From: Halolamina pelagica
Lineage (GTDB): Archaea > Halobacteriota > Halobacteria > Halobacteriales > Haloferacaceae
DNA: 47,649 nt
NCBI RefSeq assembly: GCF_900115675.1
Contig: NZ_FOXI01000016.1
Location: forward strand, 1-47,649
Reading direction: 5' to 3'
Positions 10,697 through 46,439 of this stretch are shown piece by piece. Below the pieces are notes generated by a model, which made no database searches, was not told the DNA's origin, and was given only the letters and a program-made list of their open reading frames with translations. The translations under genes were made by a program, and so were the position numbers. Positions within the stretch are counted from its first letter, which is position 1; the number at the start of each line of letters is the position of its first letter.

Positions 10697-10771
10697 TGCT
10701 CCGGCTGGGATTCGAACCCAGGTCATCACCGTGAGAGGGTGATATGATTGGCCGGACTACACCACCAGAGC
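10697..10771 (-). tRNA. trnE: tRNA-Glu (anticodon CTC)
   Basis: On the minus strand the gene runs from GCTCTGG to CCGGAGC plus discriminator A, 75 nt. The acceptor stem is seven pairs with one T-G wobble. The anticodon arm is TCACC-CTCTCAC-GGTGA, giving CTC, which reads GAG. The T arm is CTGGG-TTCGAAT-CCCAG. No CCA is encoded and no intron is present. Confidence 0.96.
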
Positions 10772-13053: not shown

Positions 13054-13890
13054 ATGGCTCACACCGTCTGTCTCACCGTCGACTTCGACGCCGTCTCGCC
13101 GTGGCTCCACGCCGGCGAGTTCGGCGACTCGCCCGTCCAACGCTCCCGCGGCGTGTTCGGCGCCGAGGTGGGCGCCCCGCGCCTGATCGACCTGTTCGAC
13201 CGGCTCGACGTGCCGACGACGTGGTTCGTGCCGGGGCACACGATCGACTCCTTCCCCGAGCCCTGCGAGCGCGTCGTCGACGCCGGCCACGAGATCGGCC
13301 ACCACGGCTGGAGCCACACGCCCCCCGGCGAGTACGAGAGCCGCGAGGCCGAGCGCGCGGACGTCGCCCGGGGGATCGAGAGCATCGAGCGGCTCACCGG
13401 CTCGGCGCCCGCGGGCTATCGTTCGCCGTCGTGGGACTTCTCGCCCCACACCGTCCCGCTCCTGCAGGAGTTCGGCTTCGAGTACTCCTCCAGCGGGATG
13501 GCCCGGGAGTTCGAGCCCTACGAACTCACCGAGGAGCACGCGCCCGTCGACGGGCCCTACGAGACGGGCGACCCCGTGGGGATCACCGAAGTGCCCGTCT
13601 CGTGGCAGCGCGACGACTACCCGGCGCTCGCGTTCTCGGGCAACCGCGCGTTCTCCGACGAGGGGGCGGTGTTCGACCACTGGCGCCGGCAGTTCGACTG
13701 GATGTCTGAACACGCTGCGGATGGAGTGTACGTCCTGACGCTCCACCCGCAGGTCAGCGGCCGGAGTCCCCGGCCGTCGATGCTCCGGGAGTTGATCGAG
13801 CACATGGCCGCCAAGCCGGGCGTCGAGTTCGCGACGGTGAGTGACGCGCTCGCCGGCACGCGGTCGGCCGGCGAGGGTGAGGAGCACTGA
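13054..13890 (+). CDS. Polysaccharide deacetylase-family (NodB homology) hydrolase
   Basis: A 278-residue protein starting at ATG 13054, about 28 nt after the box TTTATC. It has the NodB-fold motifs: LTVDFDA near the N-terminus (catalytic and metal Asp), HEIGHHGWSH (metal His pair), and GYRSPSWDFS. A C-terminal LTLHPQ motif follows. It lacks a signal peptide, so it is probably cytoplasmic and closer to PuuE-like amidohydrolases or small-substrate deacetylases than to secreted chitin deacetylases. The last 14 residues (ALAGTRSAGEG plus EEH) come from a 32-nt repeat also present in mobA, so the C-terminal tail may be an insertion or extension. Confidence 0.88.
   Translation: MAHTVCLTVDFDAVSPWLHAGEFGDSPVQRSRGVFGAEVGAPRLIDLFDRLDVPTTWFVPGHTIDSFPEPCERVVDAGHEIGHHGWSHTPPGEYESREAERADVARGIESIERLTGSAPAGYRSPSWDFSPHTVPLLQEFGFEYSSSGMAREFEPYELTEEHAPVDGPYETGDPVGITEVPVSWQRDDYPALAFSGNRAFSDEGAVFDHWRRQFDWMSEHAADGVYVLTLHPQVSGRSPRPSMLRELIEHMAAKPGVEFATVSDALAGTRSAGEGEEH
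13846..13877 (+). repeat. 32-nt palindromic repeat, copy 1 (in deacetylase gene)
   Basis: A sequence identical to the complement of 15156-15187. Its core is a perfect 9-bp inverted repeat, CTCGCCGGC (13849-13857) and GCCGGCGAG (13867-13875), around a 9-nt spacer. In frame it encodes ALAGTRSAGEG at the C-terminus of the deacetylase. Confidence 0.85.
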
Positions 13891-13945
13891 CCGCGGCGTC
13901 GCCCCGTCCCGAAACCGTTTGAACCCTCCCGCCCCCAGTCAGGCT

Positions 13946-14677
13946 ATGACCGATCTCGCTGCCGCACTCGACGCCGACGGCATGACCTGCTTCGTCGGCG
14001 CCGGCGGCAAGAAGACCACCATGTACGCGCTGGCGGCCGAGACCGACCGCGCGGTCGTCACCGCGACCGTCCGCATCCCGATCTTCGACCCCCACGTCGC
14101 CCGCGTCGTCGTCACGGAGGACCCGATCTCGACGCTGGTCACCACCGACGAGTTCCCGCTCGGGCTCGTCCCCGAACGGGAGTTCGAGGACCGCTACCGC
14201 GGCTACGAGCCCGACACCGTCACCGAGATCGCCGCGGCCCACGACGGCCCGACGCTCGTCAAGGCCGACGGCGCCCGGATGCGCGACTTCAAGGCGCCCG
14301 GCGAGAACGAGCCCCGCATCCCCGAGACGGCCGACACGGTCGTCCCGATCGCCAGCGCCCACGTCGTCGGCGAACCGCTCGACGAGGAGTTGGTCCACCG
14401 GCCCGAGCGCGTCGCTGTCGTCGCGGGCGTCGACGTGGGCGACGAGATCACGCCCGAAATCGTCGGCCGGGTGCTCGCGAGCCCCGACGGCGGCCTGCGT
14501 GGCGTCCCCGCGGGCGCGACGGCGATCCCGCTGGTGAACAAAGTCGACGACGAGGACGACCTCGACGCCGCACGCGAGATCGCCGACGCGGTGCTCGACC
14601 ACGCCGACCGCTCGGTCGTCCCGCGGGTCGTGCTCGCGCGGATGGCCGACGCCGAGGTCCGCGAGATCCGCGAGTAG
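13946..14677 (+). CDS. yqeC: YqeC-family protein (molybdenum/selenium cofactor accessory)
   Basis: A 243-residue protein with the P-loop-like N-terminus TCFVGAGGKKTTMYALA. The segments TVRIPIF, LVKADGARMRDFKAPGENEP and a C-terminal PLVNKVDD also match the YqeC family. In bacteria YqeC is linked to selenium-dependent molybdenum hydroxylases; archaeal members occur without selenium. ATG 13946 (MTDLAAAL) is the first start preceding the P-loop. Its stop abuts that of mobA on the other strand (TAGCTA, 14675-14680). The pairing supports a role in maturation of a molybdopterin enzyme. This segment lies between the two inverted copies of the 32-nt repeat. Confidence 0.85.
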   Translation: MTDLAAALDADGMTCFVGAGGKKTTMYALAAETDRAVVTATVRIPIFDPHVARVVVTEDPISTLVTTDEFPLGLVPEREFEDRYRGYEPDTVTEIAAAHDGPTLVKADGARMRDFKAPGENEPRIPETADTVVPIASAHVVGEPLDEELVHRPERVAVVAGVDVGDEITPEIVGRVLASPDGGLRGVPAGATAIPLVNKVDDEDDLDAAREIADAVLDHADRSVVPRVVLARMADAEVREIRE

Positions 14678-15364
14678 CTACTCCGAGAGCCGCGCCGCCG
14701 CCTCCTCGAACTCCGCCTGCGTGTTGAGGTTCTCGAACGTGGAGAGGTCGGTCACGGTCGCCAGTTCCGCCTCGCTCACGACCGCGTAGGAGAGGTCTTC
14801 CAGCGGTGCGAGGATCTTCCGATCCCCGCGTTCCAGCGCGGCGTCGCAGGCTTCGGCCATCCTTTCCGGCCGGTAGACCGCCTGCGTCGTCTGGTACCAG
14901 CCGTCGACGAGGCGCGGGACCGCGCCGTCGAACGGGGGCTCACCCTCGTCGTCCGCCTCGGCCGGCGGCGCGATCTCGCCGCTCGCGCGGTCGAAGAGGT
15001 AGTCGATCGCGTCGGGATCGACGAACGGCATGTCGCAGGCGACGACGGCGGCGTACTCGCCCTCAGCAGCCCGACAGCCGTTCCGGATCCCCGCCATCGG
15101 CCCCTGATCGACCTCCGGATCGAGCGCGAAGGCGGTGGGGCGGTCGAGCGCGTCGCCCTCGCCGGCCGACCGCGTGCCGGCGAGCGCTTCCTCGATCGCC
15201 TCGCGCTGGTCCTCCCGACAGTTGACGACCAGTTCGTCGACGACCGGTTCGAGTCGGTCCGCCACGCGGCGGATCATCGGCGTCCCCGCGAGCGGGGCGA
15301 CCGCCTTGTCGTCGTCGCCGAACCGGGTCGAGCGTCCGCCGGCGACGATCACGGCCGAGTGCAT
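14678..15364 (-). CDS. mobA: Molybdenum cofactor guanylyltransferase
   Basis: A 228-residue nucleotidyltransferase. The N-terminal signature IVAGGRSTRFGDDDKAVAPL binds GTP; DQGPMAGI and VVACDMPFVDPD (metal-binding Asp) follow in the usual order. MobA attaches GMP to molybdopterin to make the dinucleotide form. Residues 60-70 (ALAGTRSAGEG) are encoded by the 32-nt repeat shared with the deacetylase. They lie in the loop after the helix EDQREAIEE, where insertion would be tolerated. It converges on yqeC with abutting stops. Confidence 0.92.
   Translation of the reverse strand: MHSAVIVAGGRSTRFGDDDKAVAPLAGTPMIRRVADRLEPVVDELVVNCREDQREAIEEALAGTRSAGEGDALDRPTAFALDPEVDQGPMAGIRNGCRAAEGEYAAVVACDMPFVDPDAIDYLFDRASGEIAPPAEADDEGEPPFDGAVPRLVDGWYQTTQAVYRPERMAEACDAALERGDRKILAPLEDLSYAVVSEAELATVTDLSTFENLNTQAEFEEAAARLSE
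15156..15187 (-). repeat. 32-nt palindromic repeat, copy 2 (in mobA)
   Basis: The exact inverted copy of 13846-13877, in the same reading frame of the host gene (ALAGTRSAGEG). The two copies bracket 1.28 kb holding all of yqeC and the 3' two-thirds of mobA. Confidence 0.85.
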
Positions 15365-31112: not shown

Positions 31113-31380
31113 TCGACGACGACCTCCGCGTCGTCGTGACGCGTGGCGATGTGTTACCAGACACGGCGAGTAACACCAGTCTCCGCTCGAGACCGACCGC
31201 GACCTGCGTGTCGCGGTCACGGAGCGTGTTGCCGTGACTGTGTCGAACCAGTCACGGCGTGCGACCAGCGGCGATCTCCGGATCGGCGCCCGGAACCGAT
31301 GCCGTGACTGTGTCGAACCGGTCACGGCGTATGACCAGCGACGATCTCCGGATCGTTGCACGGAGCGTGTTGCCGTGACC
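31097..31380 (+). repeat. Structured tandem repeat block A (4 units)
   Basis: Four units: 31097-31149, 31162-31236, 31250-31309 and 31320-31380. Each has an outer stem enclosing an inner hairpin. Outer arms are TCGCCACG/CGTGGCGA, CACGGC/GCCGTG, AGTCACGGC/GCCGTGACT and GGTCACGGC/GCCGTGACC. Inner stems include ACGACGAC/GTCGTCGT and ACCGCGAC/GTCGCGGT around 6-nt loops. Units are joined by GTGT-NN(N)-ACC. The first unit overlaps the end of herA. The 31381-31476 remainder is the uspA upstream region. Confidence 0.85.
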
Positions 31381-31476
31381 GTGTATGGCCAAACGTCTCG
31401 CGACCGACCGCACCCGCCGCGCCTCGGCGGCGAATCCGCCACCCCGCTTTTCACGGATGCCCTCGAACCCCCAGCC

Positions 31477-34839: not shown

Positions 34840-35264
34840 TGGGGGAGTTCACGCTGCGGGAGCACACCGCCGACGTGGCCGTCGAAGCGACCGGCGACGA
34901 CGTCGGCGCGACGTTCGCGGCCGTCGCCGACGGGCTCGCGGCGGCGATGTGCGACGACTGGCCGGCGCCCGACGCCGCCGACGGCGGCGAGCGCGCCGAC
35001 CTCCGGGTCGTCGCCGAGAACCCGGAGGCGGCGCTGTACGACTACCTGGACGAGCTGATCTACGAACGCGACGTACGGGCGGTGCTCCCCGTCGACAACG
35101 AGGCCCGCGTCGAGGGGAACGGCGAGTGGTCGGTCGACGCCAGCTACCGGGGTGTGCCGCTCTCGGCGGTCGTCGCCCGGGAGGTGAAGGCGGTGACCTA
35201 CTCGGAGATGGACCTCCGGCGCGTCGACGGGGGGTGGGAGGCGTACGTCGTGTTCGACGTGTAA
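34839..35264 (+). CDS. Archease (RtcB activator)
   Basis: A 141-residue archease: FTLREHTADVAVEATGDD at the N-terminus, then EAALYDYLDELIYERDVRAV and the C-terminal REVKAVTYSEMDLRRVDGG. Conserved acidic residues near the N-terminus (HTADV) and the C-terminal metal region are intact. Archease speeds guanylylation and turnover of the RNA ligase RtcB, whose gene begins 1.7 kb downstream on the same strand. The two are separated by repeat block C, a zinc-ribbon gene and a DoxX-like gene. Confidence 0.95.
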   Translation: MGEFTLREHTADVAVEATGDDVGATFAAVADGLAAAMCDDWPAPDAADGGERADLRVVAENPEAALYDYLDELIYERDVRAVLPVDNEARVEGNGEWSVDASYRGVPLSAVVAREVKAVTYSEMDLRRVDGGWEAYVVFDV

Positions 35265-35266
35265 CC

Positions 35267-35470
35267 GATCACGGCTCGCGAACCGCCGCGACCGCCGTGT
35301 CGCGGCCGCGGAGCGTGTTGCCGTGATCGTGTGTTACCGACCGTGGCTCGCGAACCGCCGCGACCGCCGTGTCGCGGCCGCGGAGCGTGTTGCCGTGATC
35401 GTGTAAACCGATCACGGTTCGTGACCGCTCGCGGACTCCGTTCCGCGACGATGGAGCCACTACCGTGATC
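35267..35470 (+). repeat. Structured tandem repeat block C (3 units)
   Basis: Units 35267-35328, 35339-35400 and 35410-35470. Units 1 and 2 share a perfect 60-nt direct repeat (35273-35332 and 35345-35404, period 72). The outer stem of unit 1 is GATCACGGC/GCCGTGATC and of unit 3 GATCACGGT/ACCGTGATC, a compensatory change. The inner stem of units 1 and 2 is GCCGCGAC/GTCGCGGC around CGCCGT. The block starts 2 nt after the archease stop. Only 31 nt separate it from the convergent zinc-ribbon gene. Confidence 0.87.
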
Positions 35471-44268: not shown

Positions 44269-45918
44269 TCAGTCGTCCGCGGGGGTCTCGCCCCCGTCGG
44301 TCGCGACGTCTTCGGCGCTCTCCTGGCGGGACATCGGCTCGGGGCTGTGACACTGCCGGACCATGCGTTTGGTGTCCTCGGGCGGCTCCTCGGTGAGCCG
44401 GGAGACGACGATGGTGATCGCGAACACCAGCGGCGTCCCCACGAGCGCGGCGCCGATGGCCGGGAACACCTGTCCGTAGAGGTCACTGAACGGCACGATC
44501 AGGTCGTTGACCACCGCGGCGATCCAGACCAGCAGGCCGACGCTCATGCCCGCGAGCGCGCCCTGTCGGTTGGTCTTCTCCCACCAGAGCCCGAGGAAGA
44601 ACATCGGGAACAGCACGATCGCCGCGAGCGAGAACGCCAGCGCGACCAGTTCGCCGACCAGCGCGGGCGGGTCGAGCGCGGTGAGCGTGACGATCGCCCC
44701 GAGGACGACGATGGTCCCCCGGCCGACCAGCACCTGTTCGCGCTGGGTCGCGTCGGGGTTGATGATGTTGGTGTAGATGTCGTGTGAGACCGCCGAGGAG
44801 GCCGTGATGAACAGGCCCGCGGTCGTCGCGATGGCGGCGGCGATCCCGCCGGCGGCGACGAGGCCGACGAACCACGTCGGAAGGTTCGAGAGCTGGGCGG
44901 CCAGCACGACGATCAGGTCACCCTCGCCGCCGGACATCCCGCCCTCGGCGGCGTAGGTCGGGCCGTACTGGGAGGCGTCGTAGAGGTCGACGCCGAACGC
45001 CGCCAGCGCGGGCGCGCCCCAGTACAGCAGCATGATGAAGAACAGCCCCCAGACCGTCGAGTGGCGGGCGGTCCTCTCGTTCTCGACGGTGTAGAACCGC
45101 ACGAGCACGTGCGGGAGGCCGCAGGTTCCGAACACCAGCGAGAACGCGGTGGCGACCCAGAGGAAGAACGACGAGTTCGCGAACGGTTCGGAGAACTCGC
45201 TGTTGAGGTCGTTGATCAGCGCCCCGTACTCGATCTGGGGCAGGACGGTCGAGTAGTCGCCGGTGAAGCCGACGACGTACACCGCCGCGAGGAAGGCGAC
45301 GATGAGGATGACGTACTGCACGGCCATGTTCTTGGTCGCGCCCATCATCCCCGAGAGGCTCAGGTACGCGACGGTGATCGCCATCATGATGACCACCATC
45401 GTCACGTAGTCGGTGCCGAACACGTAGAGGCCGACCAGCCCCATCCCGCGGGCCTGCCCGACCGAGTAGACGAAGCCGATCAGGATCGTCGTCAGCGCGC
45501 CCATCGCGCGGGCGGTGTCGGAGTTGAAGCGGTCGCCGACGAAGTCCGGCGCGGTGTACTTCCCGAACCGCCGCATCTGGGCGGCGAGGAAGATGAGCAA
45601 CACGAAGTAGCCTGCGGTCCAGCCGATGATGAACGCCAGCCCGTAGAACCCGGAGAGGGCGACCAGCCCGGCCAGGCCGAGGAAGGAGGCGGCGGACATC
45701 CAGTTGGCGCCGATCGCCATCCCGTTCTCCACGTTGCCGATCGAGCGCCCGGCGACCCACATCCCCTCGGTGTCGGCCACCTTGAACAGGTAGCCGACGA
45801 CGAGGAACAGCGCCAGCATCGCGATCACCAGCACCGCCGGGATCGGCTTGAACGAGATGTCCAGCGCCTCCGGCAGGAGTTCGCTCGACTGCAGCGCCGC
45901 CGCGGCGAGCGCGTTCAT
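44269..45918 (-). CDS. actP: Sodium:solute symporter, acetate permease (ActP)-like
   Basis: A 549-residue SSS-family protein with about 13-14 membrane helices. Helix-1 region AIGANWMSAASFLGLAGLVALSG, the pattern FGTCGLPHVLVRFYTV, and AAIATTAGLFITASSAVSHDIY match the cation/acetate symporter group. The C-terminus is soluble and acidic. Its ATG overlaps the TGA of the DUF4212 gene (ATGA at 45915-45918), as is usual for these two-subunit symporters. With acetyl-CoA synthetase upstream, acetate (or a related short acid) is the likely substrate. Confidence 0.93.
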   Translation of the reverse strand: MNALAAAALQSSELLPEALDISFKPIPAVLVIAMLALFLVVGYLFKVADTEGMWVAGRSIGNVENGMAIGANWMSAASFLGLAGLVALSGFYGLAFIIGWTAGYFVLLIFLAAQMRRFGKYTAPDFVGDRFNSDTARAMGALTTILIGFVYSVGQARGMGLVGLYVFGTDYVTMVVIMMAITVAYLSLSGMMGATKNMAVQYVILIVAFLAAVYVVGFTGDYSTVLPQIEYGALINDLNSEFSEPFANSSFFLWVATAFSLVFGTCGLPHVLVRFYTVENERTARHSTVWGLFFIMLLYWGAPALAAFGVDLYDASQYGPTYAAEGGMSGGEGDLIVVLAAQLSNLPTWFVGLVAAGGIAAAIATTAGLFITASSAVSHDIYTNIINPDATQREQVLVGRGTIVVLGAIVTLTALDPPALVGELVALAFSLAAIVLFPMFFLGLWWEKTNRQGALAGMSVGLLVWIAAVVNDLIVPFSDLYGQVFPAIGAALVGTPLVFAITIVVSRLTEEPPEDTKRMVRQCHSPEPMSRQESAEDVATDGGETPADD

Positions 45919-46439
45919 ACGTCCTCACCCCCGTCGGCGGCGACGCTCTCGTCGGGCTCCGACCCGCCGCCGGAGCCGGCGTCGACGGTCTCGGAGTGGT
46001 CGATGCCGTACTTCTCGTCGAGTCTGTCCCGCCGCCGCGAGTAGATGAACGCCAGCACGAGCGAACTCGTCGGCGCGACGAACGCGACCGTGAAGTAGTG
46101 CGCCGGGAACTGGATGACGGGTATCTCCTGGGTCATCAGTTCCGGCGCCAGGTAGGTCGCAACCACCGGCCCCCAAGTGAGCACCGTCCACGCGAGAAAG
46201 CCCGCCCACACCAGCTTCAGGTGGTCCCGCATGAACGGCGTGTTGGGACTCAGGATGTTGATCTCGGTCTCGAGGTAGTCCACCTCCGCCTCGCGCTCGG
46301 CGACGCCGCCGTGGGTCTCGTCGGACGGCGGCGACGGTCGGCCGCCGTCGGTCCCGCCGGCCGGCGGCGACGATCGGCCGCCGTCGGTGGCGAGGTCGTC
46401 GGTGTCGTCGTCCGGTTCGTGTGAGGTATTGTGTGTCAT
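45915..46439 (-). CDS. DUF4212 small subunit of sodium symporter
   Basis: A 174-residue protein. The N-terminal 60 residues are disordered, with an imperfect tandem repeat (TDGGRSSPP, TDGGRPSPP). The DUF4212 core has two membrane helices (about 83-104 and 113-140, LVWAGFLAWTVLTWGPVVAT, HYFTVAFVAPTSSLVLAFIY) and the amphipathic YLETEINILSPNTPFMRDHL. It pairs with the SSS subunit encoded next, with overlapping codons. It is 56 nt downstream of acs. Confidence 0.9.
   Translation of the reverse strand: MTHNTSHEPDDDTDDLATDGGRSSPPAGGTDGGRPSPPSDETHGGVAEREAEVDYLETEINILSPNTPFMRDHLKLVWAGFLAWTVLTWGPVVATYLAPELMTQEIPVIQFPAHYFTVAFVAPTSSLVLAFIYSRRRDRLDEKYGIDHSETVDAGSGGGSEPDESVAADGGEDV

Follow-up and report, generated by a model that had tools for sequence, protein, structure and literature searches.

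The 47,649-nt stretch of DNA analysed here (the window) contains a polysaccharide deacetylase gene and a mobA-like nucleotidyltransferase gene which converge on each other, with yqeC lying between them (Table 1). The two host genes are unrelated, one encoding a Polysacc_deac_1 domain and the other an NTP_transf_3/MobA-like domain, and each carries one copy of a perfect 32-nt inverted repeat that extends to 43 nt at 91% identity. Both copies encode ALAGTRSAGEG in the identical frame, and the C-terminal extension of the deacetylase, ALAGTRSAGEGEEH, is the product of the hairpin element. Among inverted exact repeats of the window this pair is the longest, the maximum in 30 third-order Markov simulations being 23 nt, and its two copies are the sole exact 32-nt matches in the genome which holds the window (G000; relatives are numbered G001 to G006). 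Folded as DNA, the repeat forms a hairpin of -15.4 kcal/mol (z = -3.9), and none of the shuffled sequences folded as well. The original prediction had described an identical 32-nt sequence in a common frame of two unrelated genes, with a 9-bp inverted repeat around a 9-nt loop at its core, and it was accurate on each of these points.

Table 1. Features of the window that bear on the hairpin units, in order of position
Feature	Position	Strand	Remarks
Polysaccharide deacetylase gene	13054..13890	+	PF01522; ATG at 13054 assumed
36-nt hairpin unit, in frame at the deacetylase C-terminus	13846..13881	+	exact repeat 13846-13877
Parts of the deacetylase unit	5' arm 13849-13857, loop 13858-13866, 3' arm 13867-13875	+	
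yqeC, between both copies	13949..14677	+	PF19842
mobA-like nucleotidyltransferase gene with in-frame unit	14678..15364	-	PF12804; site empty in relatives
Right direct repeat GACGCGCTCG flanking the mobA unit	15145..15154	-	36 nt from left copy
36-nt hairpin unit, in frame within mobA	15152..15187	-	exact repeat 15156-15187 (reverse complement)
Left direct repeat GAAGCGCTCG flanking the mobA unit	15181..15190	-	overlaps the 5' arm of the unit; 1 mismatch to right copy
DUF4212 membrane-protein gene	45915..46439	-	PF13937; N-terminal tail TDGGRSSPPAGGTDGGRPSPPS encoded by two diverged units
Diverged weaker unit, loop GACGGTCG, antisense in frame in the DUF4212 N-terminal tail	46321..46355	+	26.5 bits
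Second diverged tandem unit	46357..46391	+	22.4 bits; 36 nt downstream of first

The core of the repeat is found at three further loci of the G000 genome, in other genes and in the same reading frame as in the deacetylase and mobA. These loci lie in genes for an NAD-dependent epimerase family protein (C14:184018, LAGAQSAGEG), a GDSL hydrolase (C14:109358, VAGTRSAVDG) and an oligopeptide ABC ATPase (C22:318342, LAGTQSGGV), which have 0, 1 and 2 mismatches, respectively, to a degenerate 25-nt core. The G005 genome has a mobA orthologue with the same unit and a 37-nt tandem array of the unit. Within the window, the diverged pair in the DUF4212 gene is reported by TRF with a period of 36; the scores of these two units overlap the noise in control genomes, and it is chiefly their regular spacing of 36 nt that supports them.

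Two covariance models, R1 built from 15 copies and R2 from 76, were used to define the family and its taxonomic range. The unit is about 36-37 nt long and consists of a 9-bp covarying stem with the core CGGC-ACGCNGTCA-GCCG, followed by GGNCGAC. The loop, ACGCNGTCA, is conserved, its commonest forms being ACGCGGTCA and ACGCTGTCA. Across 67 distinct units the stem covariation score was 0.536, compared with 0.120 +/- 0.014 after shuffling and no more than 0.100 when partners were slid; these counts lean towards a hairpin because the alignment was fitted to a hairpin model. A hand-collected set (A1) gave the same trend, with 0.279 versus 0.092. The outer five stem pairs vary freely with compensation and the inner pairs are nearly constant; one stem subtype, TCGCCGG, occurs at 30 of the loci fetched. 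Head-to-tail arrays are frequent, and their units are mostly spaced at 37 nt, in 20 cases, or at 36 nt, in 11.

Matches to R2 at E<=0.05 number 14, 8, 12, 15, 29, 29 and 42 in the seven Halolamina-group genomes, 149 in total, and 14 across 33 genomes of other genera, where none falls below 0.001. Since the models derive from genus copies and their E-values are rough, contrasting the genomes is a better guide than the values themselves. Control genomes indicate that weak matches, below about 30 bits, are partly false, and weak coding matches such as VTLGDAQSVDEVERD in G002 and G003 may be due to chance and carry no weight in the argument. Among 293 genomes of the order, R1 at E<=1e-4 matched genus members only, and no member was detected at strict thresholds in the wider family and order. 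A strict array pattern picked out eight stretches in 84,980 species genomes, one of which (Halolamina pelagica) fits the family; the other seven, from unrelated bacteria, look like chance matches. One scan of viral contigs with a strict array pattern gave 0 matches. The only Rfam matches in the window are a tRNA gene (10697-10771) and a 5S rRNA (1-83, cut by the window start), and no Rfam family corresponds to the hairpins. Taken together, the two 32-nt copies are probably members of a genus-restricted Halolamina family of short palindromic repeats which behaves like REPs or RPEs.

The original prediction had proposed a small mobile coding element. The element is indeed small and palindromic and can lie in a coding-compatible frame, but it is not mainly coding, as its largest class lies on stop codons. 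There, the stop codon of the upstream gene marks the start of 34 of the 85 loci examined, all in the sense direction, and in 30 of these 34 the stop codon occupies the identical base of the unit (T|GATC). All stop-codon arrays are sense-oriented, and orthologous genes of several species carry arrays with differing stems and unit numbers on the same stop codon; genes with a hairpin number at most a few dozen per genome. Another 29 of the 85 loci are uninterrupted in-frame copies within genes, 17 of them sense and 12 antisense. These copies use two of the three phases in each orientation and leave the arginine-rich phases unused, a bias that may reflect purifying selection in an acidic proteome.

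A related in-frame hairpin of 33-34 nt has the same TCGCCGGC arms and a shorter loop, such as ACAGGGA (L112, L137, L139, L148, L150, L222 and L243). It encodes inserts of the SPAxGAGEDD type, for example in a G004 protein (KLPVIVANGEKGSPAQGAGEDEDGPTLWITGG). Orthologues in G005, G004 and G002 (L105, L149 and L153) have C-terminal tails of degenerate 12-residue DLAGTQSGGEGE repeats. Elsewhere, a single locus in four species (L102, L115, L122 and L143) has arrays beside the gene start (AAAACGGCGGCGGCA...) with different units in each.

Comparison with orthologues identifies empty sites. The mobA site is filled in two of six orthologues (G000 and G005) and empty in G002, G003, G004 and G006. The G005 insert is 36 nt long and has GACGCGCTCG direct repeats on either side, as judged from its flanks; assignment of the direct repeats at mobA in the window is based on the window sequence together with the orthologue comparison. 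MobA of G004 (L075), which has no palindromic insert, contains a separate lineage-specific insertion, DDGSSSPSSAIADDE, further along. The full deacetylase unit is present in G000 only: the deacetylases of G002 to G005 lack it and end near VGxVV* or SDVV*, and those of G001 and G006 have an SDALA tail and no unit. At one site in tmcA, exactly 12 additional residues are present in G006 and absent from the other species, and at a second site 12 extra residues occur in G004 and G003 and nowhere else, MAFFT placing them a few residues apart. Many further copies and differences in orthologue length at the insertion site thus uphold the earlier claim that DNA was copied, and AGTRSAGEG is not an ancestral motif since the unit is absent from the mobA and deacetylase orthologues of relatives.

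At the stop-codon loci, the far side of the first unit repeats the last two codons together with the stop. Over nine bases, direct-repeat identity within 18 non-redundant loci was 7.56, compared with 7.00 +/- 0.12 for shuffled pairs, and 0 of 5000 shuffles reached as high a value (p<0.001). These repeats suggest that roughly 8-10 nt of the target were duplicated; at the deacetylase copy, no clean direct repeat is present. Current mobility of the family may be low since orthologous positions are often common to several species.

A further part of the original prediction, that recombination between the two copies would invert 1.3 kb and exchange the C-termini of MobA and the deacetylase in frame, found no support. 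The two genes are convergent, in identical order and orientation, in G000 and in G002 to G006, the relatives in which both were found, and neither an inverted form nor a hybrid gene was seen in these genomes. A polyploid population could hide the inverted form.

The family resembles bacterial REPs in several respects. REPs are imperfect palindromes of 20-40 nt with many copies per genome, as are the units described here, which number 8 to 42 per genome at E<=0.05; REPs usually exceed 100 copies (PMC2817692), so that the Halolamina family has fewer. Sub-families with alternative complementary stem residues are common to both, as are single, dimeric and grouped copies and placement near the 3' ends of genes, which is represented here by the loci that begin at a stop codon. 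In bacteria, REPs often supply the stop codon of nearby genes, and some lie entirely inside ORFs (PMC3733652). The Halolamina family differs in being archaeal and in its arrays, where units follow one another head to tail every 36-37 nt; GTAG families, by contrast, rarely have head-tail dimers. The units have a 5' foot of TGATC or GACGCGC and a 3' end of GGNCGAC, and no constant GTAG or CGTC tag was seen at one end of the stem; GTCGTCC, the reverse complement in part of the units, contains CGTC, though not constantly. No dedicated RAYT (TnpA_REP) or Y1 transposase flanked by the repeat was found in the seven genomes. IS200-type Y1 transposases occur in five of the seven, with none in G001 or G002 (the latter 79% complete), and the flanks of 19 Y1 loci contained no good unit, the best match scoring 19 bits. 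Archaeal Y1 proteins in one survey belonged to the typical IS200 subclass only (PMC6006769), and CGTC families are likewise without a dedicated transposase (PMC3733652). As the units have neither a GTAG or CGTC tag that is constant nor a Y1 transposase flanked by the repeat, the family is best termed REP/RPE-like rather than REP by descent.

The family also resembles the RPEs of Rickettsia, palindromes that lie in frame within ORFs whose proteins are apparently functional (PMC3733652). Both kinds of element form in-frame insertions which are missing from orthologues, as at mobA, tmcA and the in-frame loci here. They differ in that the Halolamina unit is 36 nt (12 residues) and has stop-codon arrays as its larger class; several Rickettsia palindromic elements are longer than 36 nt. 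The likeness would be one of behaviour, with no claim of descent. MITEs, too, are small non-coding inverted-repeat elements with short direct repeats at the insertion site, which appear to be present here as well, but they measure 70-300 bp (quoted in PMC3733652), compared with 36-37 nt for the Halolamina units, whose inverted repeats vary among copies instead of forming a fixed transposase site and for which no partner transposase was found. The end hairpins of IS200/IS605 and PATE-like elements share hairpin DNA with the family, and Y1 transposases are present in most genomes of the genus; IS200/IS605 elements differ in being described as leaving no larger target duplication (PMC2817692).

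Species comparison shows that the units copy to new places and expand as head-to-tail arrays. At several loci they have entered sites ending in GAC-TGA or a GAC-GCGCTC-like sequence and left short direct repeats, presumably by target duplication. Copies would persist mostly where they are harmless, either on a stop codon, where the unit begins TGATC, or in frame. In-frame survivors add 12 residues in a low-arginine frame, a distribution which selection may have shaped. The stop-codon hairpins are probably transcribed and, as judged from REPs, may affect translation termination or mRNA 3' ends. It is possible, if tentative, that these features define an archaeal palindromic system independent of RAYT which inserts into stop codons and into sites resembling GACGCGCTC, with duplications of 8-10 nt, adds 12-residue peptides to conserved enzymes, and rewrites its stems but keeps its loop. 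The mobA and deacetylase units of G000 are the most alike pair in the genome. Judging from the sequences, the deacetylase copy was most likely derived from the mobA copy 1.3 kb away, anchored on GACGCGCTCGC, a possible anchor already present in the deacetylases of G001 and G006. The unit occupies mobA in both G000 and G005, and the deacetylase has it in full in G000 only; the simplest order runs from mobA to the deacetylase.

Alternatively, the stop-codon hairpins could be a conserved structured RNA, that is, regulatory 3' elements selected for ribosome stalling, mRNA protection or termination, with the coding copies as by-products. This is a serious possibility, though short of an even one. 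It would account for the strong stem covariation, the different stems on the same stop codon in orthologous genes of several species and the sense orientation of every stop-codon array, and in E. coli, ribosomes reportedly stall at REPs that lie within 15 nt of a stop codon (PMC12306157). Against it, no more than a few dozen genes per genome have a hairpin, unit number differs between orthologues, in-frame and antisense coding copies would have no such role, no Rfam family matches, and mutational repair of palindromes can also yield covariation.

Local origins for the hairpins are improbable. In a template-switch mutation, the host half-palindrome GACGCGCTCGCCGGC would have folded back and been copied, such that hairpins arose anew at each place with no mobile element; two empty mobA alleles, those of G003 and G006, and the G001 deacetylase indeed contain the arm GCGCTCGCYGGC already. 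A local fold-back, however, cannot give a loop and 3' flank (ACGCNGTCA, GGNCGAC) common to unlinked loci, and at the stop-codon loci the stem arms match the host flank no better than chance (p about 0.25). Slightly less probable still is gene conversion or homologous exchange confined to mobA and the deacetylase, with the wider family unrelated. In its favour, the sole exact 32-nt matches in the genome lie 1.3 kb apart. For the family as a whole it is contradicted by the epimerase, GDSL hydrolase, ABC ATPase and TmcA genes, which carry the same core in an identical frame; it may hold for the final step of copying. Haloarchaeal proteins commonly have acidic loops rich in alanine and glycine, which might have favoured protein-level convergence or an AGTRSAGEG motif ancestral to both families, but identity at silent sites and the missing motif in the orthologues of relatives refute this explanation.

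Rickettsia and some bacteria rich in REPs had already provided examples of in-frame palindromes. The literature searched yielded no account of an archaeal equivalent in such detail; that intergenic regions of archaea contain REP-like palindromes has been predicted in general terms (PMC12306157). Because relatives offer empty sites, it becomes testable how such an element moves without RAYT and what inserts of 12 residues do to enzymes such as MobA and TmcA. For annotation, repeats may be the source of loops and C-terminal tails that are specific to a species in these genomes. Apart from the hairpin units, the window has tandem arrays at 31218-31384 and 35259-35433, which are 4 kb apart, have 70- and 72-nt units, respectively, and share CGGAGCGTGTTGCCGTGA; a 60-nt direct repeat (35273/35345) is part of the second.
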